Shown here: in pieces, positions 7,169 to 57,483 of the stretch | How the letters are laid out: every line of letters begins with the position of its first letter | Numbering within the stretch: the stretch's first letter is position 1 | Assembly: GCF_020177575.1 (NCBI RefSeq) | Contig: NZ_JAHTBK010000001.1 | Location: 1,671,875 to 1,735,874, forward strand | DNA from: Hasllibacter sp. MH4015 | GTDB taxonomy: Bacteria; Pseudomonadota; Alphaproteobacteria; Rhodobacterales; Rhodobacteraceae | Length of the DNA: 64,000 nucleotides | Direction of reading: 5' to 3' | Notes under the pieces: model-generated | What the model was told of the DNA's origin: nothing | What the model saw: only the letters and a program-made list of their open reading frames with translations | Database searches by the model: none | Made by a program: the position numbers and the translations under genes

Positions 7169-9010
7169 ATGGTCGAGTCAGCCCCGCTTTCCCCCGCGCG
7201 CCCGCGCGCCAGCCGCCCCCGGCGTGCGATCTGGGCCGTTGCGCTTACCGTGGTCCTGGGCCTTGGCATCTTGCTGGCGCTTTCGCCGCGCATCGAACGG
7301 ATCTACCTGCGCCAGGCCGGGACGGAGGACACCGCCACCCTGCAACTGGCAACCGAGGTTTTGCGCGGGGCGTTGGAGCGGACGGAAGCGCTGCCGGCCC
7401 TGATCGCGGAACGCCCCATTTTGCGACAATTGCTGGCCGAGCCGGGGAATGAGGGGCTCGCCCCCTTCACGAACGAGATGCTGCGCAATATGGCCCTGTC
7501 GCTGGACGTGTCCGATATCTACGTCATGGATGTCGAGGGCCACACGATCGCCGCGTCCAATTACCGGGCTGACCGCTCCTTCATCGGACAGAATTTCGCC
7601 TATCGCCCCTATTTCACCGATGCGATGAATGCCGGCCTGGGCCGGTTCCATGCCCTTGGCACCACGTCGGGGCAGCGTGGCTATTTCTTCGCGGCGCCCA
7701 TCCTCGACAACACGCTGATCGTCGGGGTCGTGGCTGTGAAACTGAGCCTCGATGAATTCGAGGATGCGTGGCAGGAAAGCGATGCGTCGATCATCGTGAC
7801 CGACACCAACAACGTGATCTTCCTGTCCGACCGACCAGATTGGCATTTCGCCACGCTCGGCCCATTGCCCCCCGCCGCGCTCGACCGGATCGAGGCGACA
7901 CGCCAATACCCCGCGGCCCGCCTGACCCCGTTGACCGTCGCCTCCGAGCGATTGAGCGATGGCCTCGACCTGACCACCGTCGGGGAGGAGGCGTTCGTGC
8001 AACAAACCGCTCTGATCGCCGCGCCGGGGTGGCGCGTTTCGATCCTGACGCCGACCGGTCCCGCAATCCAGCAGGCGTGGAGCACGATGTTTCTCATGGC
8101 GCTTGTCGTGGTGATGCTGGGGCTTGTGATCGCCACCATCCTTGGCCGCCGCGCGCGCCTGATCGAACGGCTGGCCGCCGAGCAATCCCTTGCGGCCCTG
8201 TTGGAGGCTCGCGTGGCGGAACGCACGGCAGAGCTCAAAGACGAGGTGGAGGAGCGGCGCGCGACCGAGGATCGTCTGCGCCGTACCCAGGCGGAGCTTG
8301 TGCAGGCGGGCAAGCTGGCAGCACTTGGGTCGATGTCCGCCGCGCTCAGCCACGAATTCAACCAGCCCCTCGCCGCCGTGAAATCCTACGCGGAAAATGC
8401 GGGCACCTTCCTCGATCGCGCGCGGGTCGCGGATGCGCGCGACAACATCTCGCGCATCTCCGCGCTGGCCGACCGGATGGCCACGATCTCCAAGCATCTG
8501 CGCAATTTCGCCCGCCGCCCGCAGGACAAAACCGGTCCGGTCTCCCTCGGGCCGATTGTCCGTGACGCGTTGGAACTGATGGATGCGCGCCTGCGTGCGG
8601 AGGGGGCGGATGTGGTCTTCACGCCGCCCGAGGTCGATATCTGGGCGCGCGGCGGGCCGGTGCGGTTGCAACAGGTCGTCGTGAACCTGCTGGGCAATGC
8701 ACTCGACGCGATGGCGGATCAGGACATGCGTCCGATCCACCTTACCGTGACCGGGGGGGACGCACCGGAAATCCGCGTGCGCGATTTCGGCCCCGGCCTG
8801 TCCGACGACGCGCTGGCCCAGGCGTTCGATCCGTTCTTCACCACCAAGGATCCCGGTCACGGACTGGGCCTGGGTCTGTCGATTTCCTACAATATCATCC
8901 GCGATTTCGGCGGGCGGCTGCTGGCGGAGAATGCACCGGATGGCGGCGCGATCTTCCGCGTGACGCTGGAGGCGGCCGCCCCCGACGCGCCCGAGATGGC
9001 CGCCGAATGA
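7169..9010 (+). CDS. DctB-like sensor histidine kinase
   Basis: A 613-residue membrane histidine kinase of the DctB type. Order: short Arg-rich cytoplasmic leader, membrane helix at about 20-40, a periplasmic double-PDC-like sensor (about 45-300), second helix at about 310-330, coiled-coil linker (RVAERTAELKDEVEERR), the HisKA box SHEFNQPLAAVKSY with the phospho-acceptor His at residue 395, and a HATPase domain (NLLGNALDAM, DFGPGLS, GHGLGLGLS). The stop overlaps the regulator start by 4 bases (ATGA), so the pair is co-translated. In the classical system DctB senses C4-dicarboxylates; here the downstream transporter is of the TAXI type, so the ligand may differ. Confidence 0.88.
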   Translation: MVESAPLSPARPRASRPRRAIWAVALTVVLGLGILLALSPRIERIYLRQAGTEDTATLQLATEVLRGALERTEALPALIAERPILRQLLAEPGNEGLAPFTNEMLRNMALSLDVSDIYVMDVEGHTIAASNYRADRSFIGQNFAYRPYFTDAMNAGLGRFHALGTTSGQRGYFFAAPILDNTLIVGVVAVKLSLDEFEDAWQESDASIIVTDTNNVIFLSDRPDWHFATLGPLPPAALDRIEATRQYPAARLTPLTVASERLSDGLDLTTVGEEAFVQQTALIAAPGWRVSILTPTGPAIQQAWSTMFLMALVVVMLGLVIATILGRRARLIERLAAEQSLAALLEARVAERTAELKDEVEERRATEDRLRRTQAELVQAGKLAALGSMSAALSHEFNQPLAAVKSYAENAGTFLDRARVADARDNISRISALADRMATISKHLRNFARRPQDKTGPVSLGPIVRDALELMDARLRAEGADVVFTPPEVDIWARGGPVRLQQVVVNLLGNALDAMADQDMRPIHLTVTGGDAPEIRVRDFGPGLSDDALAQAFDPFFTTKDPGHGLGLGLSISYNIIRDFGGRLLAENAPDGGAIFRVTLEAAAPDAPEMAAE

Positions 9011-10359
9011 GCCCTGCCCCGCCTCCCGACACCGCGCCCGTGATCTTCGTCGATGATGAAGAGGATCTGCGCCGCGCGGCGGAACAGACGTTTTCCCTGG
9101 CTGAGCTTCCCCTGCTGCCCTGCGCCACGGCGCAGGAGGCCCTGGCCCATGTCACCCCCGCCTTCCCCGGCGTGATTGTGACCGACATCCGGATGCCCGG
9201 CATGGACGGCACGGAGTTGATGGAGGCGGTCCTGTCGCGCGACCCCGACATGCCGGTGATCCTCGTGACGGGACACGGCGACGTGGATCTCGCCGTCAGC
9301 TCCATGCAGCGCGGCGCCTATGATTTTGTCGAAAAACCCTACAATCCCGCGCGATTGGTCGAAACCGTGCGGCGCGCACTGGAAAAGCGCCACCTGACGA
9401 TGGAATTGCGCGCCCTGACCGCCGGGGCCTCGGAAGGGGGGGATGATCCCATCGCCAACCGCCTGATCGGGCGCAGTGCGGTCATGGCGCGTCTGCGCGC
9501 CGATCTGCGCGCCGTGGCCGCCACGCACGCCGATGTCCTGATCGAAGGGGCCACCGGCACCGGCAAGGAGGTCGCGGCCCGCGCGCTCCACGCCGCCTCC
9601 GCGCGGGCGGCGCGGCCCTTCGTGGCGATCAATTGCGCCGCATTGCCCGACGCGATGATCGAGTCGGAGCTTTTCGGCCACGCGCCGGGCGCATTCCCCG
9701 GCGCCACGCGGGAGCGGTACGGCAAATTCGAACACGCCCGCGGCGGCACGCTCTTTCTCGACCAGATCGACAGTCTGCCGCTGCCGGTGCAGGGCAAATT
9801 GCTGACCGCGCTCCAGGACCGCGCCATCACGCCCCTTGGCTCCAATGAGCCGGTGGCTCTGGACCTGAGGGTCGTCGCGGCGTCCAAGCGCGCCCTGGCC
9901 GAGGCGGTCGCCGAAGGGTCCTTTCGCGACGATCTGCTCTATCGTCTGAACGTCTTCACCCTGCGCTTGCCCCCGCTTTCGGCCCGGCGGGAGGATATTC
10001 CCGGCCTCTACCAGATCCTCCTGGCCAAGGCGTCGGCACAGCATGGCCGGCCCGTACCGCGCGTGACGACCGATGATCTTGCCCGCCTCGCCGCCCGTGA
10101 CTGGCCCGGCAATGTGCGCGAGCTGCGGAATGAGGCGGAGCGGGCGATCCTGGGCCTCGACCGATCCGACCTGCCCCAGCCCACCGGCCGATTGTCCGAT
10201 AGAATGGCCGAGCACGAGCGGGGCCTGATCGCCGCCGCCCTCGCCGCCAATTCCGGTGTCATCAAGGCCACGTATGAGGCCTTGGGGATCAGCCGCAAAG
10301 CCCTTTACGAGAAGATGCAGAAGCACGGATTGGACCGGCAGGCTTTCCGCAGCGACTGA
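9007..10359 (+). CDS. DctD/NtrC-like response regulator with altered sigma-54 loop (GAFPGA) and Walker B (DQ)
   Basis: A 450-residue regulator: receiver domain with phospho-acceptor Asp60 (VIVTDIRMPG), AAA+ domain, and a C-terminal Fis-type helix-turn-helix (AALAANSGVIKATYEALGI). Walker A is intact (EGATGTGKE, Lys187). The sigma-54 contact loop reads GAFPGA, with Pro231 where GAFTGA has Thr, and Walker B reads TLFLDQID, with Gln253 in place of the catalytic Glu. Both changes are single-base steps from the canonical codons. Thr in GAFTGA contacts sigma-54, so activation through sigma-54 is doubtful. It probably acts by DNA binding with the sigma-70 holoenzyme, or is a weak ATPase. It likely controls the TAXI-TRAP genes just downstream. 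Confidence 0.88.
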   Translation: MSPAPPPDTAPVIFVDDEEDLRRAAEQTFSLAELPLLPCATAQEALAHVTPAFPGVIVTDIRMPGMDGTELMEAVLSRDPDMPVILVTGHGDVDLAVSSMQRGAYDFVEKPYNPARLVETVRRALEKRHLTMELRALTAGASEGGDDPIANRLIGRSAVMARLRADLRAVAATHADVLIEGATGTGKEVAARALHAASARAARPFVAINCAALPDAMIESELFGHAPGAFPGATRERYGKFEHARGGTLFLDQIDSLPLPVQGKLLTALQDRAITPLGSNEPVALDLRVVAASKRALAEAVAEGSFRDDLLYRLNVFTLRLPPLSARREDIPGLYQILLAKASAQHGRPVPRVTTDDLARLAARDWPGNVRELRNEAERAILGLDRSDLPQPTGRLSDRMAEHERGLIAAALAANSGVIKATYEALGISRKALYEKMQKHGLDRQAFRSD

Positions 10360-10370
10360 CGAAATCGCCC

Positions 10371-10419
10371 GATGGGTAAAAATCGACACATCGGACTCCC
10401 GGTGATGGGTCGAAACCCA
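10371..10419 (+). promoter_or_regulatory. Repeated GATGGGT and TGGGT-N4-ACCCA dyad upstream of the TAXI receptor gene
   Basis: The intergenic region before the receptor gene holds GATGGGT at 10371-10377 and again at 10404-10410 (33 bases apart, about three helical turns). The second copy forms an inverted repeat TGGGT CGAA ACCCA (10406-10419). These could be operator sites for the DctD-like regulator encoded immediately upstream. No GG-N10-GC (-24/-12) sigma-54 promoter was found between 10360 and 10555. Confidence 0.35.
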
Positions 10420-10555
10420 CCCACTTTCCCGATTCAATACGCGTGTTAGCGCAAACAACCGGGATGTTTCATTGCCGTCCCCTAAGTCAGGCGTCACCAA
10501 CCAAGCCAAGCGCGCGGGATGGGAGCCCGGGCGCGGAAATCCTAGGGAGAATTCC

Positions 10556-11551
10556 ATGACTTTCACGAAATTGGGCGCGCTGACGCTCACCACTGCCATT
10601 GTGGCCACGTCCGCGTTCGCCGACGGCCACCAGGACCGCACCGGCTGGCCCGAAAGCTTCACGCTCGGCACCGCAAGCCAGGGCGGCACCTACTTCGCCT
10701 ATGGCTCCGGCTGGGCCAACCTGGTGGCGGAAGAGCTGGGCATCTCCGGCGGCGCCGAAGTGACTGGCGGCCCGATGCAGAACATGGCGCTGGTCCATAC
10801 GGGCGAGGCACAGTTCGGCATGACCACGATGGGCCCGGCGGCGGATTCGCTTGCGGGCAACAACCCGATCGCACCCGGTCTGCAAATGACCAATGCCTGC
10901 GCGATGTTCCCGATGTACGAGACGCCGTTCTACATCGCGGCGCTTGCCTCTTCGGGCATCAACTCCGTGTCCGAAATCCCGGCCGGCGCGCTGATGGGCT
11001 TCGGCCCTGCAGGCTCCACCGCCGACACCTACTTCCCGCGCATGATGGAAGCCCTCGGCGCAGAGGTGGAGCGTCGCAACGGCAGCTTCAACGACATGGG
11101 CAGCCAGCTGCAGGACGGTCTTCTGGATGTATGGGGCGTTGCAGGTGGCGTTCCGACGCCCGCGATCAGCCAGCTTGAGGCGCAGACCGAGATCTCCATC
11201 ATCGAGATGAGCGAGGACGAGCTTGCCACGATCCTCGAAAGCTTCCCGGTATCGCCGTTCGAGATCACGGCGGAGACGTACCAGGCCCTCGATGCCGCCT
11301 CACCCGCCGTGTCGATGTGGAACTTCGCCATCGCCAATTGCGAGTTGCCCGACAGCTTCGTCTACGCGGTCGTGGACACGATCATGGCCGACAACGAGCG
11401 GATGGTGAACATCCACCGCGCGGCCACCGCAACGCTGCCCGAGAACTGGGATGCGAATAACGGTGTGATGATGTGGCACCCCGGTGCGGCCCAGTGGTTC
11501 ACCGAAAATGCCGGGGCGGAAATCGCTGCCGACATGATCCACGGTAACTGA
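10556..11551 (+). CDS. TAXI-family TRAP transporter solute receptor
   Basis: A 331-residue periplasmic binding protein of the TAXI (TRAP-associated extracytoplasmic immunogenic) family. The start at ATG 10556 is preceded by AGGGAGA; residues 1-22 are a signal peptide (cleavage near SAFADG). The family hallmark follows as FTLGTASQGGTYFAYGSG, with later LVHTGEAQFGMTT and GFGPAGSTADTYF. It should capture an organic solute and hand it to the fused permease encoded two genes downstream. TAXI substrates are poorly known; a few family members bind glutamate-like compounds. A strong stem-loop follows the stop codon, consistent with higher expression of the receptor than of the permease. Confidence 0.93.
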   Translation: MTFTKLGALTLTTAIVATSAFADGHQDRTGWPESFTLGTASQGGTYFAYGSGWANLVAEELGISGGAEVTGGPMQNMALVHTGEAQFGMTTMGPAADSLAGNNPIAPGLQMTNACAMFPMYETPFYIAALASSGINSVSEIPAGALMGFGPAGSTADTYFPRMMEALGAEVERRNGSFNDMGSQLQDGLLDVWGVAGGVPTPAISQLEAQTEISIIEMSEDELATILESFPVSPFEITAETYQALDAASPAVSMWNFAIANCELPDSFVYAVVDTIMADNERMVNIHRAATATLPENWDANNGVMMWHPGAAQWFTENAGAEIAADMIHGN

Positions 11552-11560
11552 TAGACCTTA

Positions 11561-11587
11561 GGGGCGGGCCTGTCCTTGGCCCGCCCC
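11561..11587 (+). promoter_or_regulatory. Intercistronic stem-loop after the TAXI receptor gene
   Basis: A perfect 10-base stem (GGGGCGGGCC at 11561-11570 with GGCCCGCCCC at 11578-11587, 7-base loop) lies 9 bases after the receptor stop. No U-tract follows, so it is more likely an mRNA-stabilising or partially attenuating hairpin that raises receptor over permease transcript than a full terminator. Confidence 0.6.
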
Positions 11588-11604
11588 AACCCTTGAGTAC
11601 GCCG

Positions 11605-12297
11605 ATGTTCGCGCGATCCCACCTGACATACGAGGCGCTGCCCCTGCCCGACCGGATCGCGGTGGATGACACCGCCATGCGCGCCGCCGCACAGGCCGCC
11701 TACGACGATATCCGCACCCGCCACACGGTCCGCGATTACGCGGAGACGCCCGTCCCCCGCGACGTGATCGAAAGCTGCGTCATGGCCGCCGGAACGGCCC
11801 CTTCGGGCGCAAACCACCAGCCATGGCATTTCGTAGCCATCGCCGATCCGGCGCTCAAGGCCCGCATCCGCGAGGAAGCGGAACTGGAGGAGCAGCGCTT
11901 TTATGACGGCGGCGCGGGCGATGAATGGCTCAAGGCGTTGGAGCCCATCGGGACCGACGCCTCCAAACCGCACCTGACCACCGCGCCATGGCTGATCGTG
12001 ATCTTCGCGCAGCGTTGGGGCGCCTTCGACGACGGCACGCGGTTCAAGAATTACCACGTGCCCGAAAGCGTCGGCATCGCGACGGGCTTCCTGATCTGGG
12101 CGCTGCACCGCGCCGGGCTGTCGGTTCTTACCCACACGCCGAACCCGATGAAATTCCTCAACGGCGCCCTCGATCGCCCGGCCTCCGAGAAACCGACGAT
12201 GATCCTCGCCGTGGGGCACGCCGCGCCCGATGCGACCGTGCCCGCCGTCGCCAAAATCAAGAAACCGCTGACCGAAATCCTCAGCATCAAGGACTAG
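11605..12297 (+). CDS. Iodotyrosine-deiodinase-like flavoprotein (nitroreductase superfamily)
   Basis: A 230-residue FMN protein of the nitroreductase superfamily that resembles iodotyrosine deiodinase (IYD) rather than nitro-group reductases. The FMN motifs RHTVRDY and TAPSGANHQPWHFV are present. The IYD substrate triad is present with exact human spacing: Glu96, Tyr100 and Lys121 correspond to Glu157, Tyr161 and Lys182. The C-terminal half also matches (RPASEK, DATVP, KKPLTEI). IYD reductively removes iodide, bromide or chloride from halotyrosines. The gene lies between the TAXI receptor and permease, suggesting that the imported compound is its substrate; this is inference. ATG 11605 is chosen over TTG 11593. 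A general quinone or nitro reductase remains possible. Confidence 0.85.
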   Translation: MFARSHLTYEALPLPDRIAVDDTAMRAAAQAAYDDIRTRHTVRDYAETPVPRDVIESCVMAAGTAPSGANHQPWHFVAIADPALKARIREEAELEEQRFYDGGAGDEWLKALEPIGTDASKPHLTTAPWLIVIFAQRWGAFDDGTRFKNYHVPESVGIATGFLIWALHRAGLSVLTHTPNPMKFLNGALDRPASEKPTMILAVGHAAPDATVPAVAKIKKPLTEILSIKD

Positions 12298-12335
12298 GGC
12301 CGGACGATCCTCCGCCCGCGAAAGGGACTGACGAC

Positions 12336-14897
12336 ATGACCGACCGCACCGCCGAGACCCCGCTCGACGATCAGGATACCGGCCCCGTGATCGCCGAGGG
12401 CGTGGATGAGGAACCGGTTGAAAGCAACCGTCGCCTGTTCACCGGCGGCAGGCTTCTGTTCATCGCGGCACTCTCCACGATCTACGCGGGCTTTCACATG
12501 GCCGCGCTCAATGGCCTGTCGCTGTCGAACATCACGGGGATCGAGATCGGGTTCCTGCCGCAATTCCCGATGGAGACGTGGAATTTCCGCATCGTGCACA
12601 TCGCGGGCGCGCTGGTTCTGGGCTTCGCGCTCTTCTCGGCGCATACGTTCGGCGGCAATCCCGATGAGGATCGGCAGACCCGCCTCCTGGGGTTCCTGGG
12701 CATCGCTCTGGCCCTGCCCGTGCTCTACGCGGGCTATACCGCGATGGGCTTCATCGGTCAGATCACGTCGGGCGACCTGCCGCAGATGGGTGGGCTGACG
12801 ACATGGGCGTCCTTCCCGGGGACGGAGACCTTTGCCGCCGAAACCTACCATTTCGGCCTGCCATTGCTGGTCTCGACCGGCGGGGGGATTCTTCTTGGCT
12901 GGTTCGAGCGTCAGCGCCGGTCGGACATCGCAATATCCGACATCGTTCTTGCGCTTTGTGCCATCGTCGTCGCGCTCTACCTCGTAGCGATCTACGGCAC
13001 CGCGGCGCGCAATTCGGTCGGCACGCCGTTCGTGCCCATCGGGGTCGCGTTCGCGGCCACAGCGGGCGCGGCGCTGATCCTCGAACTTACGCGCCGTGTC
13101 ACGGGCCTCGCCCTTGTGGTCATCACCGGCGTGTTCCTTGCCTACACCTTCACCGCGCATCTGCTGCCCGGCATCCTGGCCGTCCAGAACCCCTATTCGT
13201 GGCAACGGTTCTTCGGCCATGTCTATTCGGATGCAGGCATCCTCGGGCCGACGACCGCCGTGTCTTCGACCTACATCATCCTCTTCATCATCTTCGCGGC
13301 CTTCCTCCAGGCCTCCAAGGTGGGCGATTATTTCGTCAACTTCGCTTTCGCCGCCGCCGGTCGGGCGCGCGGCGGACCGGCGAAGGTCGCAATCTTCGCC
13401 TCCGGCCTGATGGGCATGATCAACGGCACCTCCGCGGGCAACGTCGTGGCCACCGGGTCGCTCACCATCCCGCTGATGAAAAAGGTCGGCTACCACAAGA
13501 AAACTGCCGGCGCGGTGGAGGCCGCGGCGTCCACCGGGGGCCAGATCATGCCACCGATCATGGGTGCGGGCGCCTTCATCATGGCCGAGATCACCGGCAT
13601 CCCCTACCAGGAGATCGCGATTGCCGCGATCATTCCCGCCATCCTCTACTTCGCCTCGATTTACTTCATGGTCGATTTCGAGGCCGCCAAGCTTGGCATG
13701 CGCGGTATGCGCGAAGATGAGCTGCCGAAATTCAAGGCCATGGCGCAGAAGGTCTTCCTGTTCCTGCCCATCGTGATCCTGATTGTGGCGCTGTTCCTGG
13801 GCTATTCCGTCATACGCGCAGGCACATTGGCCACGATTGCGGCCGTCGTCGTGTCATGGGCCGCGCCACAACACTTCGCGCTGCGCGGGGGGGGCTGGTC
13901 AATCCAGCGCCTGCTTGTCGTCGCCATCTCGATCCTGACGGTCCTGCTGACGATCGTCTGGCTCGCCACGCCCGCGCCCGAGCCGGGGCAGCCGCAAAGC
14001 GACCTCATCAACACGCTGATCCTCGTGACCGGCCTCGTCATCGCGGTCAGCTTCGTGTTCATCTCCGTCTTGGAATTCCTGCGCCCCGGCGCGCAGCAGG
14101 GCCTGGGCGTCAAGGGCATGGTCCGGGGGCTGGAGCTCGCGGGCGTGATGTCGATCCAGATCATCGCGGTCTGCGCCTGTGCGGGCATCATCGTGGGCGT
14201 GATCTCACTCACCGGGGTGGGCGCGCGCTTCTCCAACGTGCTTCTCGACCTCGCGGGCGTCAGCCAGCTTCTGGCGCTGTTCTTCGCCATGTGCATCGCG
14301 ATCCTTCTGGGCATGGGCATGCCGACAACCGCGGCCTACGCCGTCGCGGCCTCCGTCGTGGCGCCGGGCCTGGTGGAGTTGGGCATCCCCCACCTGACGG
14401 CGCACTTCTTCGTCTTCTACTTCGCGGTCGTCTCTGCCATCACGCCGCCCGTGGCGCTTGCCTCCTACGCAGCGGCGGGCATCTCGGGTGCCAACCCGAT
14501 GGAAACTTCCGTCGCGTCGTTCAAGATCGGCATCGCCGCCTTCATCGTGCCCTTCATGTTCTTCTACAACGGCAACCTTTTGATGCAGGGTGCGGAACTG
14601 GTCGAAGTGGGTGGCGAGATGGTTCACCAGGCACCGGCGTGGTACAATATCGTGCGTGCGCTCGTTACCGCGACGGTAGGCATTTTCCTGCTGACCTCCG
14701 GCATCCAGGGCTGGTTCATGGGCGGACGGGCCGTCTGGTTCCTGCGCGTGGGGCTTATCATCGCCGCGCTCCTTTTGATCGCGGGCGGTCTCGTCACCGA
14801 CCTCGCGGGCATCGGCCTTGCCGTTGCGATCTTCGCGGTCCAGCGCTTCGTCAAACCCGCGCCGATGACGACGATCCCGGTGCGCGGCGCCGATTGA
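12336..14897 (+). CDS. TRAP transporter fused permease (4TM/12TM, TAXI type)
   Basis: An 853-residue inner-membrane permease in which the small (DctQ-like) and large (DctM-like) TRAP subunits are fused, as is usual for TAXI systems. Residues 1-35 are acidic and cytoplasmic; hydrophobic segments then run to the C-terminus. DctM-type signatures include GLMGMINGTSAGNVVATGSL, AAASTGGQIMPPIMGAGAF in the first half, and the reciprocal GMGMPTTAAYAVAASV and SAITPPVALASYAAAG in the second. It works as a Na+- or H+-coupled solute importer with the receptor at 10556-11551. The ATG at 12336 follows the deiodinase-like gene by 38 bases, so the three are probably one transcript. The open frame upstream of 12336 is a shadow of that gene. 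Confidence 0.93.
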   Translation: MTDRTAETPLDDQDTGPVIAEGVDEEPVESNRRLFTGGRLLFIAALSTIYAGFHMAALNGLSLSNITGIEIGFLPQFPMETWNFRIVHIAGALVLGFALFSAHTFGGNPDEDRQTRLLGFLGIALALPVLYAGYTAMGFIGQITSGDLPQMGGLTTWASFPGTETFAAETYHFGLPLLVSTGGGILLGWFERQRRSDIAISDIVLALCAIVVALYLVAIYGTAARNSVGTPFVPIGVAFAATAGAALILELTRRVTGLALVVITGVFLAYTFTAHLLPGILAVQNPYSWQRFFGHVYSDAGILGPTTAVSSTYIILFIIFAAFLQASKVGDYFVNFAFAAAGRARGGPAKVAIFASGLMGMINGTSAGNVVATGSLTIPLMKKVGYHKKTAGAVEAAASTGGQIMPPIMGAGAFIMAEITGIPYQEIAIAAIIPAILYFASIYFMVDFEAAKLGMRGMREDELPKFKAMAQKVFLFLPIVILIVALFLGYSVIRAGTLATIAAVVVSWAAPQHFALRGGGWSIQRLLVVAISILTVLLTIVWLATPAPEPGQPQSDLINTLILVTGLVIAVSFVFISVLEFLRPGAQQGLGVKGMVRGLELAGVMSIQIIAVCACAGIIVGVISLTGVGARFSNVLLDLAGVSQLLALFFAMCIAILLGMGMPTTAAYAVAASVVAPGLVELGIPHLTAHFFVFYFAVVSAITPPVALASYAAAGISGANPMETSVASFKIGIAAFIVPFMFFYNGNLLMQGAELVEVGGEMVHQAPAWYNIVRALVTATVGIFLLTSGIQGWFMGGRAVWFLRVGLIIAALLLIAGGLVTDLAGIGLAVAIFAVQRFVKPAPMTTIPVRGAD

Positions 14898-15015
14898 CGC
14901 CCGCCCCCCGGCGGCTCCATTAAGGACAGCGCGCGCCTTGGCTGATACGCCGGGGCGCGCGTTCGCTTTTCACGTTGTTCCCGATCCCGCACTTGCCCGT
15001 CGGAGGCTCTCGAAT

Positions 15016-16197
15016 TTGGCCCTGCCCGTCCTAAACCAATCGCCCACGGCGGACGATTTCGTTCAGAACCCCTACCCGTTCTACGACCGCGCGCGCGCCG
15101 CTGGGCCGCTGTTTCACTGGGCGGACTATGACCTGCCCTGCACCACGACCCATGAGTTGACGAGCCTGATCCTGCGCGACCGGCGTTTCGGGCGGGAGCC
15201 TGTGCAGGCGCTGCCGATCCCCGATCACCTCAAACCCTTTTACGCGGTCGAGGCCCATTCGATGCTGGAGCTGGAGCCGCCCCGCCACACCCGCCTGCGC
15301 GGCCTTGTCCTGCGCGCCTTCACCTCGCGCCGCATCGCCGGGCTCGCACCCGAGATCACGCAGCTCACCCATGACCTTATCGACGCCTTTCCGGGCGGTG
15401 CGCACGATCTGCTCGACACGTTCTGTCGCCCCCTCCCCGTGACGATCATCGCGCGCCTGTTGGGCGTACCCGAGGCGATGGCCCCCGACCTGCTGCGCTG
15501 GTCCAACGCGATGGTGATGATGTACCAGGCGGGCCGTACCCCCGAAGACGAGCGCAAAGCGGTCGCCGCCACCGAGGATTTCGTGGCCTTCCTGCGCAGC
15601 TACGTTGCCGAGAAGCGCACCCGTCCCGCCGATGATCTGATCTCCGCCCTCATCGCGGCGGAGGAGGCGGGAGAGAAATTGTCCACCGACGAACTCATCA
15701 CCACCTGCATCCTGCTGCTGAACGCGGGGCATGAGGCGACAGTGCATTCGCTTGGCAATGCCATCAAGCTTTGCCTCGAACAGGGACATCGCCCCCCCAC
15801 CAAGGCCAGCCCCTTCACCGAAGAGATGTTGCGCATCGACCCGCCGCTCCACATGTTCACGCGCCACGCCTACGAGGAGGTGACGCTGGCCGGCCACACC
15901 TTCCGACGCGGCGATCAGGTGGGCCTTCTTCTGGCCGCGGCCAATCGCGATCCCGCCGCCTACCCGGACCCGGAGACGTTCGACGCCACCCGGTTCTCCG
16001 CATCCCGAAAACCGCCCGCGCAACTGGCCTTCGGTGCGGGCCTGCATTTCTGCGTCGGCGCGCCGCTTGCGCGGTTGGAGCTTGATATCGCCCTGCCAAG
16101 CCTCTTTGCGCGCCGCCCCGACCTCGCGCTGGCCCGACCACCGCGTTACGCCGACATCTTCCATTTCCACGGGCTTGACGCTCTGATGGTGCGCTGA
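15016..16197 (+). CDS. Cytochrome P450
   Basis: A 393-residue soluble bacterial P450, expected to hydroxylate an unidentified substrate. Signatures: I-helix LLNAGHEAT (oxygen-activating AGxET), ExxR as EEMLR, and the haem-binding loop FGAGLHFCVGAPLA with the Cys ligand. The start is TTG 15016, supported by GGAGG nine bases upstream; the upstream extension to 14938 has no such site and would add a non-P450-like leader. No ferredoxin or ferredoxin reductase is encoded nearby, so electron donors must come from elsewhere. The stop overlaps the ATG of the site-2 protease gene (TGATG), a tight coupling of two otherwise unrelated functions. Confidence 0.93.
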   Translation: MALPVLNQSPTADDFVQNPYPFYDRARAAGPLFHWADYDLPCTTTHELTSLILRDRRFGREPVQALPIPDHLKPFYAVEAHSMLELEPPRHTRLRGLVLRAFTSRRIAGLAPEITQLTHDLIDAFPGGAHDLLDTFCRPLPVTIIARLLGVPEAMAPDLLRWSNAMVMMYQAGRTPEDERKAVAATEDFVAFLRSYVAEKRTRPADDLISALIAAEEAGEKLSTDELITTCILLLNAGHEATVHSLGNAIKLCLEQGHRPPTKASPFTEEMLRIDPPLHMFTRHAYEEVTLAGHTFRRGDQVGLLLAAANRDPAAYPDPETFDATRFSASRKPPAQLAFGAGLHFCVGAPLARLELDIALPSLFARRPDLALARPPRYADIFHFHGLDALMVR

Positions 16198-20062: not shown

Positions 20063-21161
20063 GCGCGGCGCGATAGGCCAGCCCTGTCAGGCACGCGGCA
20101 CCAAGGCAGACGACAATCGCCACGGGCAGATACGCCCCCTGCCCCAGGGCCGCCAGAACGGGCGTTCCCGTGAAGGTCCCGATATTGCCAAGCTGTGCGA
20201 GCGCGCCGTTTGACAGCGCCCGGTCGTCATCGGCGTCGTTCAACCAAGGCACAGCGGCAAAGCCCGCGCCCGCCACGATCCCGCTGACGCCCATGGCAAG
20301 GATCAGGACATAGGGCGCGAGCATCCCGGCGATCATCGTAAGCGCGAATAGTGCGGCCATGGCGATGAAGGTCGTCCAGACCAGCGTGCCGGGCGCGATC
20401 CACCGGGCAAGCACACCGGCGGCGAACGATCCCACGATGCCCGCAAGCGGCAGGACCGGGGCAAGCCAAAGGGCATCCAGCGCGGCGGGCAGGAACGTGA
20501 TCAGGGCAAGGAACAGCATCGCGTAAATGCCGTGGCCCAGCCCCGGCGCGAACAGGCGCGGCGTGGTGTAGATCATCACATGGTCCGACAGACGCGGCAG
20601 CGGGCGGCGCGCAACCGTCACGCCCCGCGGCAAGATCGCCCACAGCACGCCCAGCATGATCGCCGCACACAGGGCATGCCCGCCATAGGCCAGCCGCAGG
20701 TCATCCCCGATCAGAAGGGCCGCCAGCGCGAAACCCACCCCGAAGAAGGTGGCCCAAAGGCCCATGACCATCGCCCGGTCCCTCGGCGCGGCCAGCCCCG
20801 CCATCAGGGTCGGCACCGCCACAACAAGCACCAGATGGCCCGCCCCCTCGACCACGCGCAGGGCCATGAAACCGGGGAACGGCGGCAAGATCGCCTGCGC
20901 CGCGCCCACAAGGGCAGAGGCACCAAGCGCCCAAAGGATCGCGCGGCGTGGGCCGAAGCTGGCCGTTATCCCGCCCGCCATCGCGCCGAACAAGATGCCT
21001 ATGACTGCAACGCCGGACACTGCGAAGGCCACCGGCCAGCCCGGATAGACCTGTGCCAACCCCTCCAGCGTCAGCGAGACCTTGGTGAACTGCGCCCCCG
21101 CGATCAGGCCGGTCAGGTACAGCGCCGCGATCAACGGCCAAGGGGTGCGGGTCGCGGGCAT
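20055..21161 (-). CDS. Major facilitator superfamily transporter
   Basis: A 368-residue MFS carrier with about eleven or twelve hydrophobic helices. The conserved loop 2-3 region is recognisable as [20 protein letters not shown]. The ATG at 21161 ([16 protein letters not shown]) begins directly before the first helix; the much longer open frame upstream is antisense to the VWA gene and is not coding. Substrate is not predictable. The gene reads toward uvrA, and the uvrA LexA box lies across its stop codon. Confidence 0.85.
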
Positions 21162-21320
21162 GGCGCAGGCATGATCTGTTTCAATCTGGGCGTCAAGCGC
21201 GGGGGTGCGACGGGGGAAAAGGCGGGAAATCCGGCCCTTTGCGCAAAGTCCGGAACACGTTACCGTGACATCCAAAGATCGGATTCTGTCCGGTTGCTGC
21301 CCCTTTTTGACTTCAGACGG

Positions 21321-24300
21321 ATGATTATGATGCGCGCTTTTTTTCTCGCCCTTTTCACGATTTTGATGCTTCCCCTGGCCGCTTTGGCCCAATCCACCGA
21401 CCGCCCGAACACGATCCTCGTGCTTGACGGGTCGGGCTCCATGTGGGGGCAGATCGACGGGGTGAACAAGATCGTCATCGCGCGCAACGTGATCCGCGAC
21501 ATGCTGGCAGATATGGCCGATGACGTATCGCTTGGCCTGACCGTCTATGGCCACCGCGAACGGGGAAGCTGCGGCGATATCGAGACGATTGTCGAACCTG
21601 CGCCATTCACCCAGGACCGTATTCTGGACGCCGTGAATTCCATCAATCCCCGCGGCCGTACGCCCATGACCGATGCCGTGATCGCCGCCGCGCAATCGTT
21701 GCGCCACACCGAAGAAGCCGCGACCGTCATCCTCGTCTCGGACGGGATCGAGAACTGCAATCCCGACCCCTGCGCCATCGCCACCGAGTTGGAGCAATCG
21801 GGCGTTGCTTTCACCGCCCACGTGATCGGCTTCGACGTCGCCTCCGAGCCGGAGGCGCGCGCGCAGATGCAGTGCATCGCCGACAATACCGGCGGACAAT
21901 TCCTGACCGCCGACAACGCCGCCGAGCTGTCCGCCGCGCTGGAACAGGTGGTCGAGGCCGCCCTGCCCACGCCGATGCGGATCGAGGCGCAAGTGATGCC
22001 GCAAGGCACGCTGCCGACGCGGCCCGTGACGTGGCTTCTGACCGGGGCGGACGGCGATGTCATCTCCTCCGGGATCGAGGCGCCCGCCATCGACGTGCAG
22101 CTTTTCCCCGGCCGCTACCTCGTGCAGGCCACCCGCGTCGAACCGGACGGCCCGCAAACCTATCAGACGTCCTTCGACGTGATCCAGGACCGCTCGGACC
22201 TGATCGTGGTGGCCATGCCCCCGATCATCGAGACGAGCCAGGTGACCTTCACCGCGCGGGTGGAGCCGGAGATGAGTGTCCCGGCCTCCCCCCTCAACTG
22301 GACGCTGTCCGACGATGCGGGCACCGTTCTTCTGGGCCCCGTCGCAGCGCCCGGTGGCAATGTCGCCCTTCTGCCCGGCGATTATCTCCTGACCGTTGAG
22401 CGTGTGAACCAGGGCACCACGCACGAGGCCCGCTTCACCGTGGAGCCGAACCAGCCGCGGGAGGTCGTGATCCCCCTGCCCGCCATTTCGGTCGATGTGA
22501 ATTTCATCGCACGGATCGGCAGCGTCAGCGGCCTGCCCGTGACCGACCCCGTGATCTGGGAGGTCACACCGCTTGATCCCGCGCCCGAAATCGCGACTAC
22601 AAACCCGGCCAGCGTCGCACTCAGCCGGGGCGCCTATCGCGTCACCGCCTACTGGACCGCACAGGAGGTCGAGGTCAGCACCGATTTCGTGATCGTCGAT
22701 CAACCGCGCGAAATTGTGGTGGTCTTCGACGAACCCATCCCCCAGGCCTCGATCACCACGGTCGCACAGGCCCGCGCAGGCGACACGATCGAGGTCGCCT
22801 GGACCGGCCCCGGCGGCAACAGCGACTGGCTGGGTTTCTTCGAGCCGTCGAATACCGGCAACCACGGCCACCAGGCGGGCTCGACCGTCCGCATCAACCA
22901 GGGCAACCCGCTGCAAATGCGCGTCGCCCCGATCCCCGGCACCTATGAACTGCGCTACATCGACGCCGAAAACGGCCGCCGCGTGCTCGCCCGCGTTCCG
23001 TTCGAGGTTCTGCCCCAGCCCGCATCGGTCCAGACCGTGACGGGTGTGGCCGGAAGCCAGGCGACCGTCGAATGGACCGGCCCCAATTTCGAGGGTGACT
23101 GGCTCGGCTTCTTCCCCGTCGACAACACGGCCAACCACGGGCACCAGTCACTGTCCTCGGTGCGCCTGGACGGGACGACGTCACCCGCCACGCTCAACTA
23201 CCCGGCCGAGGCCGGAACTTACGAGCTACGGTATGTCATGGCGCTGGGTCGCACGACGCTCGCCAGCCAGACCGTGGAAGTGACCGAAGTGCAGGCCACG
23301 CTCACCACCTCCCCCACGGGAACAGCCGGCGCACAGGCCGAGGTCGGCTGGACCGGCCCCGCATACGATAGTGACTGGATCGGCTTCATCAGCCCGGACA
23401 ATACGTCCAACCACAGCTATGAGTTCGCAACCCGCGTCGCCGTGGCAAGCGGCAACCCCGTGCGGCTCAACTACCCCGCCGCGCCAGGCACTTACGAGCT
23501 CCGGTATGTCCAAGCCCAGGGCCGTCAGGTGCTGGCCCGCATGACCGTGGTGGTCGGTGAGGTCGAGGCGTCCCTGACCACCTCCCCCACGGGAACGGCA
23601 GGCGCGCAGGCTGAGGTCGGTTGGACTGGCCCCGCTTATGACAACGACTGGATCGGATTCATCAACCCCGATAACACCTCCAACCACAGCTACGACTTCG
23701 CGACGCGCGTCGCCGTCAGCAGTGGCAACCCGGTGCGTCTGAACTATCCCGCTGCCGCCGGAACCTACGAACTCCGGTACGTCCAAGCCCAAGGCCGTCA
23801 GGTCCTCGCCCGCATGACCGTCGTGGTCGGAGAGGTCGAGGCATCCCTCACAACCTCCCCCACCGGCATAGCTGGCGCACAAGCCGAGGTTGGCTGGACC
23901 GGCCCCGCCTACGACAACGACTGGATCGGGTTCATCAACCCCGATAACACCTCCAACCACAGCTACGATTTCGCCACGCGCGTGGCGGTCAGCAGCGGCA
24001 ACCCGGTGCGGCTCAATTACCCCGCCGCTCCCGGCACCTACGAACTCCGGTACGTCCAAGCCCAGGGCCGTCAGGTCCTCGCCCGCATGACCGTGGTGGT
24101 CGGAGAGGTCGAGGCGTCCCTCACAACCTCCCCCACCGGCACCGCTGGCGCACAGGCGGAGGTTGGCTGGACCGGCCCCGCCTATGACAACGATTGGATC
24201 GGGTTCATCAACCCCGAGAATACCTCCAACCACAGCTACGATTTCGCCACGCGCGTCGCCGTCAGCAGTGGCAACCCGGTGCGTCTGAACTACCCCGCTG

Positions 24301-25721
24301 CCGCCGGAACCTACGAGCTCCGGTATGTTCAGGCCCAAGGCCGACAGGTCCTCGCCCGCATGACCGTGGTGGTCGGTGAGGTCGAGGCGTCGCTGACGAC
24401 ATCGCCGACGGGTGAGGTCGGCCAGACCGCCGAGATCGGATGGACAGGCCCCGCATATGACGGCGACTGGATCGGGTTCATCAATCCGGACGACACATCG
24501 AACCACAGCTATGACTTTGCCAGCCGCGTGGCCGTCAATACAGGCAACCCGGTGCAGCTTGCCTATCCCAATGCGCCCGGCACGTACGAGCTGCGCTACA
24601 TCCAGGCGCAAGGCCGTCAGGTGCTGGCGCGGATGAACGTTGTGGTGGAGGAAGCAGAAGCCTCCCTCACCGTCCCGCAAAGTGTGGAAGCCGGATCGAC
24701 CATCGAAGTGACTTGGACCGGGCCGAACGCCCCGCGCGATTACATCGGCATCGGGCCTGCCGGGGCCACGGGTGGTGGGCAATGGCAAAACTATTCCCGC
24801 ACCAGCGATGGCAACCCGCTGCGCCTTCTGATGCCGCCAGAGCCCGGGGAATACGTGATCCAGTATTTCCTCAATCAGGGCAACCGGTCGCTGGTCAGCG
24901 TGCCCGTCACCGTGACGGCGGTTGAAGCGGGTCTGACCGCGCCCTCCAGCGCGATTGCCGGTGAAACGATCGAGGTCGGTTGGACCGGCCCCGATCAAGC
25001 GAACGATTACATCGCAATCGGTCGCGTCGGGGCGACCGGCGGGGGCCAGTGGGAGAACTACACCCGCACGAATGCTGGCAACCCGTCCAGCCTGCTCGTT
25101 CCCGCCACGCCGGGGGATTACGTGATCCAGTATTTCCTCAACCAGGGCAACACGTCGCTCGCCACGTTCCCGCTCACCGTGCTGCCGGTGGAGGCAAGCG
25201 TGACCGCGCCCGCCAGTGCCGTGGCCGGTGAAACGATCGAGGTCGGCTGGACCGGGCCCGATTACGTCAACGACTATATCGGCATCGGACTGGTCGGGGC
25301 CACCGGCGGCGGCCAATGGCAGGCCTATTCCCGCACGTCCAGCGGCAACCCGGTGCAACTTCGCGTCCCCGTCGCCCCCGGCACCTACGAGATCCGGTAT
25401 TTCGTGAACCAGGACAATACCGAGGTCGCGATCACGACCATCGAAGTAACCGAGGTTCAGGCCATCGTGACCGCGCCCGAAACCGCCGCCGCGGGGTCAT
25501 CCATCGAGGTGGGCTGGGTCGGACCGGATTACGACAACGATTTCATCGGGATCGGACCGGCCGGCGCGACCGGTGGCGGCCAATGGCAAAGCTATCAGCG
25601 CACGTCGCAGGGCAATCCCGTGACCTTGGCCGTGCCGTCCGAGCCCGGCTCTTACCTGATCCAGTATTTCCTGAACCAAGGGAACACGCCCATCGGCTCC
25701 GTGCCGATCACCGTGCAGTAG
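21321..25721 (+). CDS. Giant secreted VWA-domain protein with eleven tandem repeats
   Basis: A 1466-residue exported protein. Signal peptide at residues 1-25 (RAFFLALFTILMLPLAALAQ region). VWA domain at about 28-220 with an intact MIDAS: DGSGS in TILVLDGSGSMWG, Thr in RGRTPMTDA, Asp in VSDGIENCN. Three Ig-like linker modules follow (about 220-474), then seven class-A and four class-B repeats of 89-92 residues to the end. Class A carries WTGP, DWIGF and GTYELRY; class B carries WTGP, DYIGIG and GATGGGQW. No anchor or sorting motif is visible at the C-terminus. It is probably a periplasmic or surface protein binding partners through metal-dependent VWA contacts; function unknown. ATG 21321 and in-frame ATGs at 21327 and 21330 are all possible starts. 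Confidence 0.85.
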   Translation: MIMMRAFFLALFTILMLPLAALAQSTDRPNTILVLDGSGSMWGQIDGVNKIVIARNVIRDMLADMADDVSLGLTVYGHRERGSCGDIETIVEPAPFTQDRILDAVNSINPRGRTPMTDAVIAAAQSLRHTEEAATVILVSDGIENCNPDPCAIATELEQSGVAFTAHVIGFDVASEPEARAQMQCIADNTGGQFLTADNAAELSAALEQVVEAALPTPMRIEAQVMPQGTLPTRPVTWLLTGADGDVISSGIEAPAIDVQLFPGRYLVQATRVEPDGPQTYQTSFDVIQDRSDLIVVAMPPIIETSQVTFTARVEPEMSVPASPLNWTLSDDAGTVLLGPVAAPGGNVALLPGDYLLTVERVNQGTTHEARFTVEPNQPREVVIPLPAISVDVNFIARIGSVSGLPVTDPVIWEVTPLDPAPEIATTNPASVALSRGAYRVTAYWTAQEVEVSTDFVIVDQPREIVVVFDEPIPQASITTVAQARAGDTIEVAWTGPGGNSDWLGFFEPSNTGNHGHQAGSTVRINQGNPLQMRVAPIPGTYELRYIDAENGRRVLARVPFEVLPQPASVQTVTGVAGSQATVEWTGPNFEGDWLGFFPVDNTANHGHQSLSSVRLDGTTSPATLNYPAEAGTYELRYVMALGRTTLASQTVEVTEVQATLTTSPTGTAGAQAEVGWTGPAYDSDWIGFISPDNTSNHSYEFATRVAVASGNPVRLNYPAAPGTYELRYVQAQGRQVLARMTVVVGEVEASLTTSPTGTAGAQAEVGWTGPAYDNDWIGFINPDNTSNHSYDFATRVAVSSGNPVRLNYPAAAGTYELRYVQAQGRQVLARMTVVVGEVEASLTTSPTGIAGAQAEVGWTGPAYDNDWIGFINPDNTSNHSYDFATRVAVSSGNPVRLNYPAAPGTYELRYVQAQGRQVLARMTVVVGEVEASLTTSPTGTAGAQAEVGWTGPAYDNDWIGFINPENTSNHSYDFATRVAVSSGNPVRLNYPAAAGTYELRYVQAQGRQVLARMTVVVGEVEASLTTSPTGEVGQTAEIGWTGPAYDGDWIGFINPDDTSNHSYDFASRVAVNTGNPVQLAYPNAPGTYELRYIQAQGRQVLARMNVVVEEAEASLTVPQSVEAGSTIEVTWTGPNAPRDYIGIGPAGATGGGQWQNYSRTSDGNPLRLLMPPEPGEYVIQYFLNQGNRSLVSVPVTVTAVEAGLTAPSSAIAGETIEVGWTGPDQANDYIAIGRVGATGGGQWENYTRTNAGNPSSLLVPATPGDYVIQYFLNQGNTSLATFPLTVLPVEASVTAPASAVAGETIEVGWTGPDYVNDYIGIGLVGATGGGQWQAYSRTSSGNPVQLRVPVAPGTYEIRYFVNQDNTEVAITTIEVTEVQAIVTAPETAAAGSSIEVGWVGPDYDNDFIGIGPAGATGGGQWQSYQRTSQGNPVTLAVPSEPGSYLIQYFLNQGNTPIGSVPITVQ
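22743..25721 (+). repeat. Tandem in-frame repeat array inside the VWA gene (7 class-A + 4 class-B units)
   Basis: Unit starts: A1 22743, A2 23019, A3 23289, A4 23562, A5 23835, A6 24108, A7 24381, B1 24654, B2 24921, B3 25188, B4 25455. A3-A7 are exactly 273 bases apart; B1-B4 exactly 267. A4, A5 and A6 differ by only one to three residues but by about thirty silent bases (A4 versus A5). A6 looks mosaic: its first half matches A5 and its second half matches A4. Confidence 0.92.
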
Positions 25722-54311: not shown

Positions 54312-55628
54312 TCAAAGGTAATCCGACCGGCTCAACCCGTATTTCGCCATCTTCTCGTTAAGCGTCCGGCGCGGCAGGCAAAGCTCATCCATCACGCTGG
54401 CGATGGAGCCGCGATGCCGCCGCATCGTGTTGTCGATCAACATCCGCTCGAATGCCTCGACATATTCCTTCAGGGGCTTGCCCTCCCCGATGGCCTGGGG
54501 CGCGATCTGGGTGTTGTCGGACATCAGCAGCGACGCGATGGAGCCGGAGCCCCGGCGTTGCTGCAAGATCGCGCGTTCCGCGATGTTGATAAGCTGGCGC
54601 ACGTTGCCCGGCCACGGCGCTTGCAGCAATTGCGCGGCCTCCTGGGCCGTGACCTGCGGCGCGTCGGTGCCGTATTCCTCCGAAAACTGCTCCCCGAACC
54701 GGGTGAAGAGCGTCAGGATATCCTCGCCCCGCGCCCTGAGCGGCGGCAGGTCGATGCGCATCGCGGCCAGGCGGTAGAACAAATCGGGGCGCAGCGCCGC
54801 CTCGCAATTCTCGGGCTCGGGCGCGTTGCAGATGGCCACGATCCGCGTCTCCGCCGGCGTCCCCTGATCGTTGATGAAGGTCAGAAGCCGCGCCTGCAAC
54901 GCCTGGCTCAATGCCTCCACATCCTCCAGCACCAATGTACCGCCGCGGGCCTGTTCCACCAGCGGCTTGTCCTGATCCTCGCCCACCGGCCCGAACAGCT
55001 TGGCCGACAGATCCTCCTCCTCGTGGGCCGCACAGCTCAGCACCACGAAATGCTTGCCCGCCCGTGGCCCCACCGCGTGTAGCGCATGCGCCACCAGCGT
55101 CTTGCCCGTCCCCGTCTCCCCGGTGATCAGCACGTGGCCGTCGGCCTGGCCGAGGTCGAGGATGTCCTCGCGCAACCGGTCCATCACCGGGCTCGACCCG
55201 ATCAGCTTGCGCATCAGCACCGTGCCGTCGCTCAATTCCTTGCGAAGCGCCCGGTTGTCCAAGGTCAGGCGGCGCTGCTGCCCCGCCCGCTTGGCCAGAT
55301 CCGTCATCCGGTCGGGGTTGAACGGCTTTTCAAGGAAATCGTAGGCCCCGATCCGCATCGCCTCCACCGCCATGGGCACGTCGCCATGCCCGGTAATCAG
55401 GATCACCGGAATGCCGCTATCGACGCCCATCAGCCGCTTGAGGAACGCCATCCCGTCCATCCCCGGCATCTTCACATCCGTCACCACCACGCCCGGAAAG
55501 TCCGAGCCGATGGCCTTCAGCGCATCCTCCGCGCTGGCATAGGTTTCGGTGTCAAACCCCGACAGGGCCAGCCATTGGCTGATCGACTGCCGCATATCCT
55601 GCTCATCATCCACAATCGCGATCTTCAT
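54312..55628 (-). CDS. DctD-like response regulator lacking the GAFTGA loop
   Basis: A 438-residue regulator: receiver with Asp51 (VVVTDVKMPG), AAA+ domain with Walker A ITGETGTGKTLVAHAL, and a Fis-type helix-turn-helix (RGSIASVMDELCLPRRTLNEK). Between LFG and GGTL the segment is about six residues shorter than usual and contains no GAFTGA; Walker B reads TLVLEDVE. Sigma-54 contact is therefore very unlikely. NtrC of Rhodobacter capsulatus, which also lacks GAFTGA, is known to act with sigma-70 RNA polymerase, a reasonable model. AAAGGA precedes ATG 55628 by nine bases. It pairs with the kinase gene 21 bases upstream and is followed by three CX3C membrane genes. Confidence 0.88.
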   Translation of the reverse strand: MKIAIVDDEQDMRQSISQWLALSGFDTETYASAEDALKAIGSDFPGVVVTDVKMPGMDGMAFLKRLMGVDSGIPVILITGHGDVPMAVEAMRIGAYDFLEKPFNPDRMTDLAKRAGQQRRLTLDNRALRKELSDGTVLMRKLIGSSPVMDRLREDILDLGQADGHVLITGETGTGKTLVAHALHAVGPRAGKHFVVLSCAAHEEEDLSAKLFGPVGEDQDKPLVEQARGGTLVLEDVEALSQALQARLLTFINDQGTPAETRIVAICNAPEPENCEAALRPDLFYRLAAMRIDLPPLRARGEDILTLFTRFGEQFSEEYGTDAPQVTAQEAAQLLQAPWPGNVRQLINIAERAILQQRRGSGSIASLLMSDNTQIAPQAIGEGKPLKEYVEAFERMLIDNTMRRHRGSIASVMDELCLPRRTLNEKMAKYGLSRSDYL

Positions 55629-55649
55629 GTCGCAGATCCTTTTACCGTC

Positions 55650-57422: not shown

Positions 57423-57483
57423 GGGGTGAAGCCTAGGGCGCACCCGCCTTCCGCTCAAGCCGATTGCATCCGGTAAGCCACGC

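Follow-up and report, generated by a model that had tools for sequence, protein, structure and literature searches.

Does an iodotyrosine deiodinase (IYD) homologue encoded between the receptor and the permease of a TAXI-TRAP transporter belong to a dedicated system for halogenated amino acids, or is it an optional insert in a transporter operon? The question was raised by a window of 64,000 nt (the whole stretch of DNA that was analysed) from Hasllibacter sp. MH4015, the genome of which comprises 3.71 Mb on two contigs. A first-pass annotation had proposed that the locus senses, imports and reductively dehalogenates a compound such as halotyrosine. The five genes that it had listed were all recovered at their positions, and Pfam and NCBIfam profiles agreed on their types. 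The P450 gene at 14938–16197 had been absent from it.

The gene set and the IYD homologue

The six genes, all on the + strand, encode, in this order, a histidine kinase of the Cache type, a regulator of the NtrC type, the TAXI receptor, the nitroreductase-fold protein, the fused TRAP permease and the P450. The features are as follows:

7169–9010, + strand: DctB-like sensor histidine kinase (dCache_1, just under the cut-off; HisKA; HATPase_c)
9007–10359, + strand: NtrC/DctD-type response regulator with a GAFPGA loop (Pfam and NCBIfam domains)
10556–11551, + strand: TAXI-family TRAP solute receptor (PF16868, 182.1 bits; TIGR02122, 140.5 bits, cut-off 84.35)
11561–11587, + strand: 10-bp GC hairpin between the receptor gene and the IYD gene (-26.6 kcal/mol, z -3.26)
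11605–12297, + strand: IYD homologue, 230 aa from its ATG (PF00881)
12336–14897, + strand: fused TAXI-TRAP permease, 853 aa from ATG 12336 (TIGR02123, 600.7 bits, cut-off 320.65)
14938–16197, + strand: cytochrome P450 (PF00067, 104.4 bits)

The models for the receptor and the fused permease both scored above their cut-offs within one gene set, which identifies it as a TAXI-TRAP system, and the IYD gene lies between these two genes. Elsewhere in the genome only one weak TAXI receptor match (29.7 bits) was found. The dCache_1 domain of the kinase reached 44.2 bits in the Pfam search, versus a cut-off of 45. The receptor reading frame is open from TTG 10472, and a start at ATG 10556 yields, by eye, a Sec-type leader; an in-frame TTG is also present upstream of the IYD gene, at 11593. 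No T run follows the GC hairpin in the window sequence. The IYD and permease genes are separated by 38 bases and the permease and P450 genes by 40 bases; these short gaps suggest one transcript, and the IYD gene is probably co-transcribed with the transporter genes. Further downstream in the window, a long reading frame (20532–25721) was seen by eye to encode an internal secretion-like leader, a von Willebrand-like region and about 10 related repeats, of which about five hardly differ from one another.

The assignment of the nitroreductase-fold protein was analysed by comparison with solved structures. PF00881 matched it with 78.4 bits (cut-off 23.5). The top solved match of the 230-residue protein in a phmmer search was 5ko7 from Haliscomenobacter (202.9 bits), the next were four animal IYD chains (124–131 bits), and 6pz0, the chain of which is named iodotyrosine deiodinase, reached 72.7 bits. 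All solved matches not named IYD scored 40 bits or less, and the phmmer scores thus clearly separate IYDs from other nitroreductase subgroups. The entries 5ko7, 5ko8 and 5krd are listed as "Nitroreductase"; we take them to be the IYD of Haliscomenobacter hydrossis.

The residues E96, Y100 and K121 (numbering from ATG 11605) align with E153, Y157 and K178 of mouse IYD and with the same triad of the Haliscomenobacter protein, so that the exact spacing of the human triad (E157, Y161 and K182) claimed in the first-pass annotation was borne out. In addition, T178 aligns with mouse T235. The Glu-Tyr-Lys triad comprises the substrate-binding residues of IYDs, and the Thr is at the position of a mouse FMN contact that favours dehalogenation over nitroreduction. 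The match of the triad is not a matter of chance, because the window protein shares 94 of 191 aligned residues with the Haliscomenobacter protein and 81 of 195 with mouse IYD. Triad and Thr were kept in all 202 collected homologues, which shows consistency but is no independent test, because similarity to the window protein had been the basis of the collection. The genome encodes two further nitroreductase-fold proteins; they match other subgroups, with YdjA-like and NfsA/YcnD-like proteins as the nearest, and contain none of these four residues.

The animal IYD/DEHAL1 structures (3gb5, 3tnz, 4ttb, 5yak) share the triad spacing and the Thr with the window protein. Animal IYDs carry a transmembrane domain according to the available text of PMC3930498, whereas no transmembrane segment was seen by eye in the window protein. 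Of the eight FMN contacts of mouse IYD given in that text, five are identical in the window protein, and R97, S98 and R275 are replaced by H, T and K. In comparison with the Haliscomenobacter IYD, which has the same triad and Thr, two FMN contacts differ (H for R and K for R). In the available text of PMC4708624 the mammalian enzyme DEHAL1 is described as also debrominating free bromotyrosine in vitro, and bromo-hydroxyphenylacetate as causing no inhibition, which fits a triad that grips the amino acid.

The protein might have drifted to another reaction, e.g. flavin reduction or the reduction of a different zwitterionic phenol. The distance from the solved IYDs and the three changed FMN contacts are in line with such a drift, as is the precedent of C. 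elegans SUP-18, an IYD orthologue with an unknown substrate according to the available text of PMC3930498. However, the triad and the Thr were retained in the window protein and throughout the homologues, and we regard a changed reaction as improbable.

A reference tree gathered all 13 IYD rows to a single side of one branch with low support (34/53; 31% of 200 bootstraps), and it gave no clear family placement because long branches meet in it. The AlphaFold model was confident, with a pLDDT of 86.5 and a pTM of 0.84. A comparison with PHROGs yielded a generic nitroreductase match (32.3 bits) for the IYD homologue and no match for the TAXI receptor. Taken together, the sequence comparisons support the proposed iodotyrosine-deiodinase-like enzyme, and the window protein is very likely an IYD-type dehalogenase.

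Distribution of IYD and TAXI genes

All 13 genomes of the genus contain the TAXI receptor. A whole IYD gene is present between receptor and permease in four of them, and in a fifth genome the IYD is cut to its first 90 residues while receptor and permease are still present. Thus, the IYD is absent or broken in 9 of 13 genomes that all keep the receptor. A weak match in G003 (29.5 bits, residues 28–104, elsewhere in the genome) was read as another nitroreductase-fold protein and was not counted. The receptors of the genus form one clade (SH-aLRT 96), and so do its IYDs (98/98). Because both trees contain a single clade for the genus, an early presence of the IYD in the genus, followed by several losses, is probable.

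Next, the association was quantified in the family with one genome per genus. The IYD was found in 90 of 295 genera. Receptor orthologues with at least 65% identity were found in 48 of the 295, mostly without IYD, and a threshold of E 1e-30, by which receptors that are less closely related were also counted, yielded 70. Two of the 48 close receptors show a stop inside the match. IYD and close receptor occurred together in 9 genera, versus 14.6 expected (Fisher p = 0.06, towards avoidance), and according to their coordinates the two adjoin each other only in the genome of the window and in G152. The gene neighbourhoods were read over about 6 kb in both directions as far as the contigs reached, and some were cut short by contig ends. 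The 86 IYD loci of the family that were examined consist of 82 plus four more; they cover the 90 IYD-bearing genera except the four with the lowest scores. The IYD adjoined TAXI genes in two of the 86, i.e. in the genome of the window and in G152, and in none of 36 further genomes of the class. Among the best 80 named loci, several of which had short flanks, the IYD was beside TAXI genes in two, both of the genus of the window and both matching genus genomes by their coordinates. These 80 loci were not added to the family sample because others of them probably overlap it. A conserved IYD–TAXI association was not borne out at any of these levels, and its lack is one of the outcomes that the first-pass annotation itself had named as refuting its proposal.

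Genes were called with a simple GC-position script, and errors among the calls are possible; the IYD of the window, for instance, escaped the script under an extended permease reading frame and was set by hand. Three candidates were not counted as adjacent. In L075, one of the 80 named loci, a TAXI pair is about 5 kb from the IYD, with other genes between. In L343, from the class sample, a different TAXI receptor is 4.5 kb and a DctB-like kinase (by eye) 2.4 kb from the IYD, again with other genes between, one of them on the opposite strand. In L265 the permease match was weak (45.8 bits) and on the other strand.

The settings of the IYD genes were varied. Among the 82 one-per-genus loci, genes resembling MbfA, AEC or S-formylglutathione hydrolase were within two genes of the IYD in 32, genes resembling ArgP or LysE in 17 and TAXI genes in two, whereas the other 31 had none of them; the non-TAXI labels reflect a reading of the sequences and not profile matches. 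The labels cluster by lineage on the IYD tree, with 17 changes versus a mean of 42 in shuffles. The first setting is exemplified by L228, L232, L240, L250 and similar loci, in which the AEC-like gene can be on either side of the IYD. In many of the loci L202–L219 the IYD follows an ArgP-like regulator, which has a LysE-like exporter on the opposite strand as its neighbour. This setting hints that amino-acid export may be a partner process of the IYD.

The second genus, that of G152, deserves separate consideration. Its IYD is also between TAXI receptor and permease, with an exchanger-like gene beside it, as read from the sequence. The receptor of G152 is nearest to that of G208, a genome without an IYD match. 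The G152 IYD joined the IYDs of the genus of the window in 0 of 200 bootstrap trees, but a single origin was not rejected (AU p = 0.199), and in the 19-row reference tree the G152 IYD was the nearest row outside the genus. The two genera thus have the IYD at one and the same site of the operon while their IYDs are set apart in the free tree, which hints at repeated recruitment, and it would be remarkable if the gene had arrived there twice. In L179 and L187, however, this gap is occupied by other genes, and it may simply tolerate inserts. It is rather unlikely that there were two or more independent recruitments of the IYD into this gap of one TAXI-P450 operon, owing to an import of tyrosine-like aromatics, some of them halogenated, by its transporter. 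In L171 and L187 (G152 and G208) the receptor gene was seen by eye to follow genes resembling those of valine breakdown (acyl-CoA dehydrogenase, enoyl-CoA hydratase-like protein and 3-hydroxyisobutyrate dehydrogenase).

Receptor pocket, P450 and regulator

The binding pocket of the receptor was compared with those of solved relatives, i.e. 8s4j and 1us4/1us5, which we take, from the residue numbering, to be the glutamate receptors VcGluP and TtGluBP. They belong to the same family as the window receptor. The pocket positions of VcGluP were taken from the available text of PMC11574862. Tyr45 is kept in the window receptor, whereas S75, Q93, E125, Y200 and M201 of VcGluP are replaced by P, T, T, V and A. 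The nearest solved relatives include glutamate receptors, but a glutamate type was rejected for the window receptor because five of the six positions differ. In particular, glutamate is an unlikely ligand because Q93, which makes the largest contribution to glutamate binding in VcGluP according to the available text of PMC11574862, is a Thr.

TAXI loci were mapped for the window and for 30 others of the 48 close-receptor genera. From a total of 43 mapped loci, three with receptor or permease not called were dropped. An alignment of 42 receptors showed that four of the six pocket columns are invariant, whereas one has either Tyr or Phe and another either Phe or Val. At the position of VcGluP Gln93 all 42 have Thr, and at that of Y200 Phe is present in 40 of 42 relatives. 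No column of the receptor alignment separated the six IYD-bearing operons, one of them with a remnant, from the 36 without IYD. The idea of receptors that are specialised in IYD-bearing operons thus gained no support. The tie between IYD and TAXI is a local one that many of the genomes lack, and the receptor bears no sign of it.

In all 13 loci of the genus, and in 5 of 27 other loci, the P450 is one of the two called genes that follow the permease; its nearest solved match is 8yhn (256.9 bits). The P450 is a steadier partner of the TAXI operon than the IYD. Transporter and P450 might form a core that handles an aromatic or bulky carboxylate, usually non-halogenated, with the IYD as an add-on for halogenated forms. 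The P450 counts, the lack of a glutamate-type pocket and the coinciding position of the IYD in the two genera would be in agreement with such a core, but 22 of the 27 TAXI loci outside the genus had no P450 call downstream of the permease, and we consider it unlikely.

In a dedicated system, a halogenated aromatic amino acid would be sensed by the two-component pair, taken up through the TAXI transporter and dehalogenated by the IYD. The same-strand operon layout, the recurrence of the gene between receptor and permease in a second genus, the IYD of which is separate in the free tree, and the five pocket differences from VcGluP, which make another ligand likely, all speak for it. Against it, 9 of 13 genus genomes keep the receptor with the IYD absent or broken, 84 of the 86 examined IYD-bearing family genera and all 36 further class genomes lack an adjacent TAXI gene, co-occurrence is not raised, and the pocket hardly differs with and without IYD. 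The proposal of a dedicated system is thus weak, and we regard it as quite unlikely; that the operon imports halogenated aromatic amino acids at all has about one chance in eight.

The two-component pair had been annotated as DctB/DctD-like. As far as domain types are concerned this was confirmed, and the domain order is the same as in DctB/DctD and NtrC. A kinase homologue was called upstream in all 13 genus loci. A reading of the regulator as a sigma-54-dependent activator did not stand. The loop of the regulator is GAFPGA instead of GAFTGA, genus relatives also have GAFAGA or GAFEGA, and the loop is altered in all 12 of 13 genus loci in which the regulator was called (in L164 it was not called). 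A model search for rpoN was negative in all 13 genus genomes, one of them 83% complete; the same model detected rpoN in 4 of 14 control genomes, Caulobacter among them. The sigma-54 reading of the pair was therefore dropped. According to the available text of PMC10274813, NtrC of Rhodobacter capsulatus and of Caulobacter, which are without the GAFTGA loop, act at sigma-70 promoters; there the motif is deleted, whereas it is altered in the window regulator. The altered loop, the negative search for rpoN and this precedent together make a sigma-54 DctB/DctD circuit unlikely here. A second kinase and NtrC-like regulator pair, again DctB/DctD-like by eye, is encoded on the - strand of the window (54312–57458), and its regulator seemingly misses the GAFTGA region. 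The mode of action of NtrC-type regulators without sigma-54 is worth attention.

A probable role for the IYD homologue

The reading that we prefer, with a probability of about 0.68, is that the gene encodes a halotyrosine dehalogenase and is an optional insert in an older transporter operon. The product would be a reductive dehalogenase of the IYD type that depends on FMN. Free halotyrosine would be bound by its charged amino and carboxyl groups to the triad E96-Y100-K121 and thereby kept over the flavin, and its iodine, bromine or chlorine would be exchanged for hydrogen with two electrons supplied by reduced FMN. The resulting tyrosine could be used or broken down by the cell; the genome contains an HPPD gene at another locus. 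In this lineage, the IYD gene would have been inserted between receptor and permease of an older TAXI-TRAP operon with its two-component pair and P450. This operon does not appear to need the IYD, and the receptor is not visibly changed in its presence. The IYD is most likely an accessory or passenger gene, and its product a salvage or clean-up enzyme for cytosolic halotyrosine, whatever its source.

To our knowledge, the role of IYDs for bacteria is unclear to date. Bacterial IYDs as such are already known, and the available text of PMC13078365 cites a range from mammals to bacteria. In a literature search that reached only a minority of subscription papers, no paper with both "TRAP transporter" and "iodotyrosine", no title on the gene context of bacterial IYDs, and no earlier case of a TAXI transporter linked to a halogenated amino acid were found. 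If the IYD was recruited repeatedly because the transporter imports such compounds, a TAXI transporter would be tied to a halogenated amino acid, and P450 and reductive dehalogenase would be alternative first steps. For the TAXI family, a ligand that is guessed from an enzyme gene in the operon could mislead in this case, and the P450 is the better clue. For the IYD, its presence in 90 of 295 sampled genera of one family in varied settings points to a general clean-up of halotyrosine and not to one fixed pathway.
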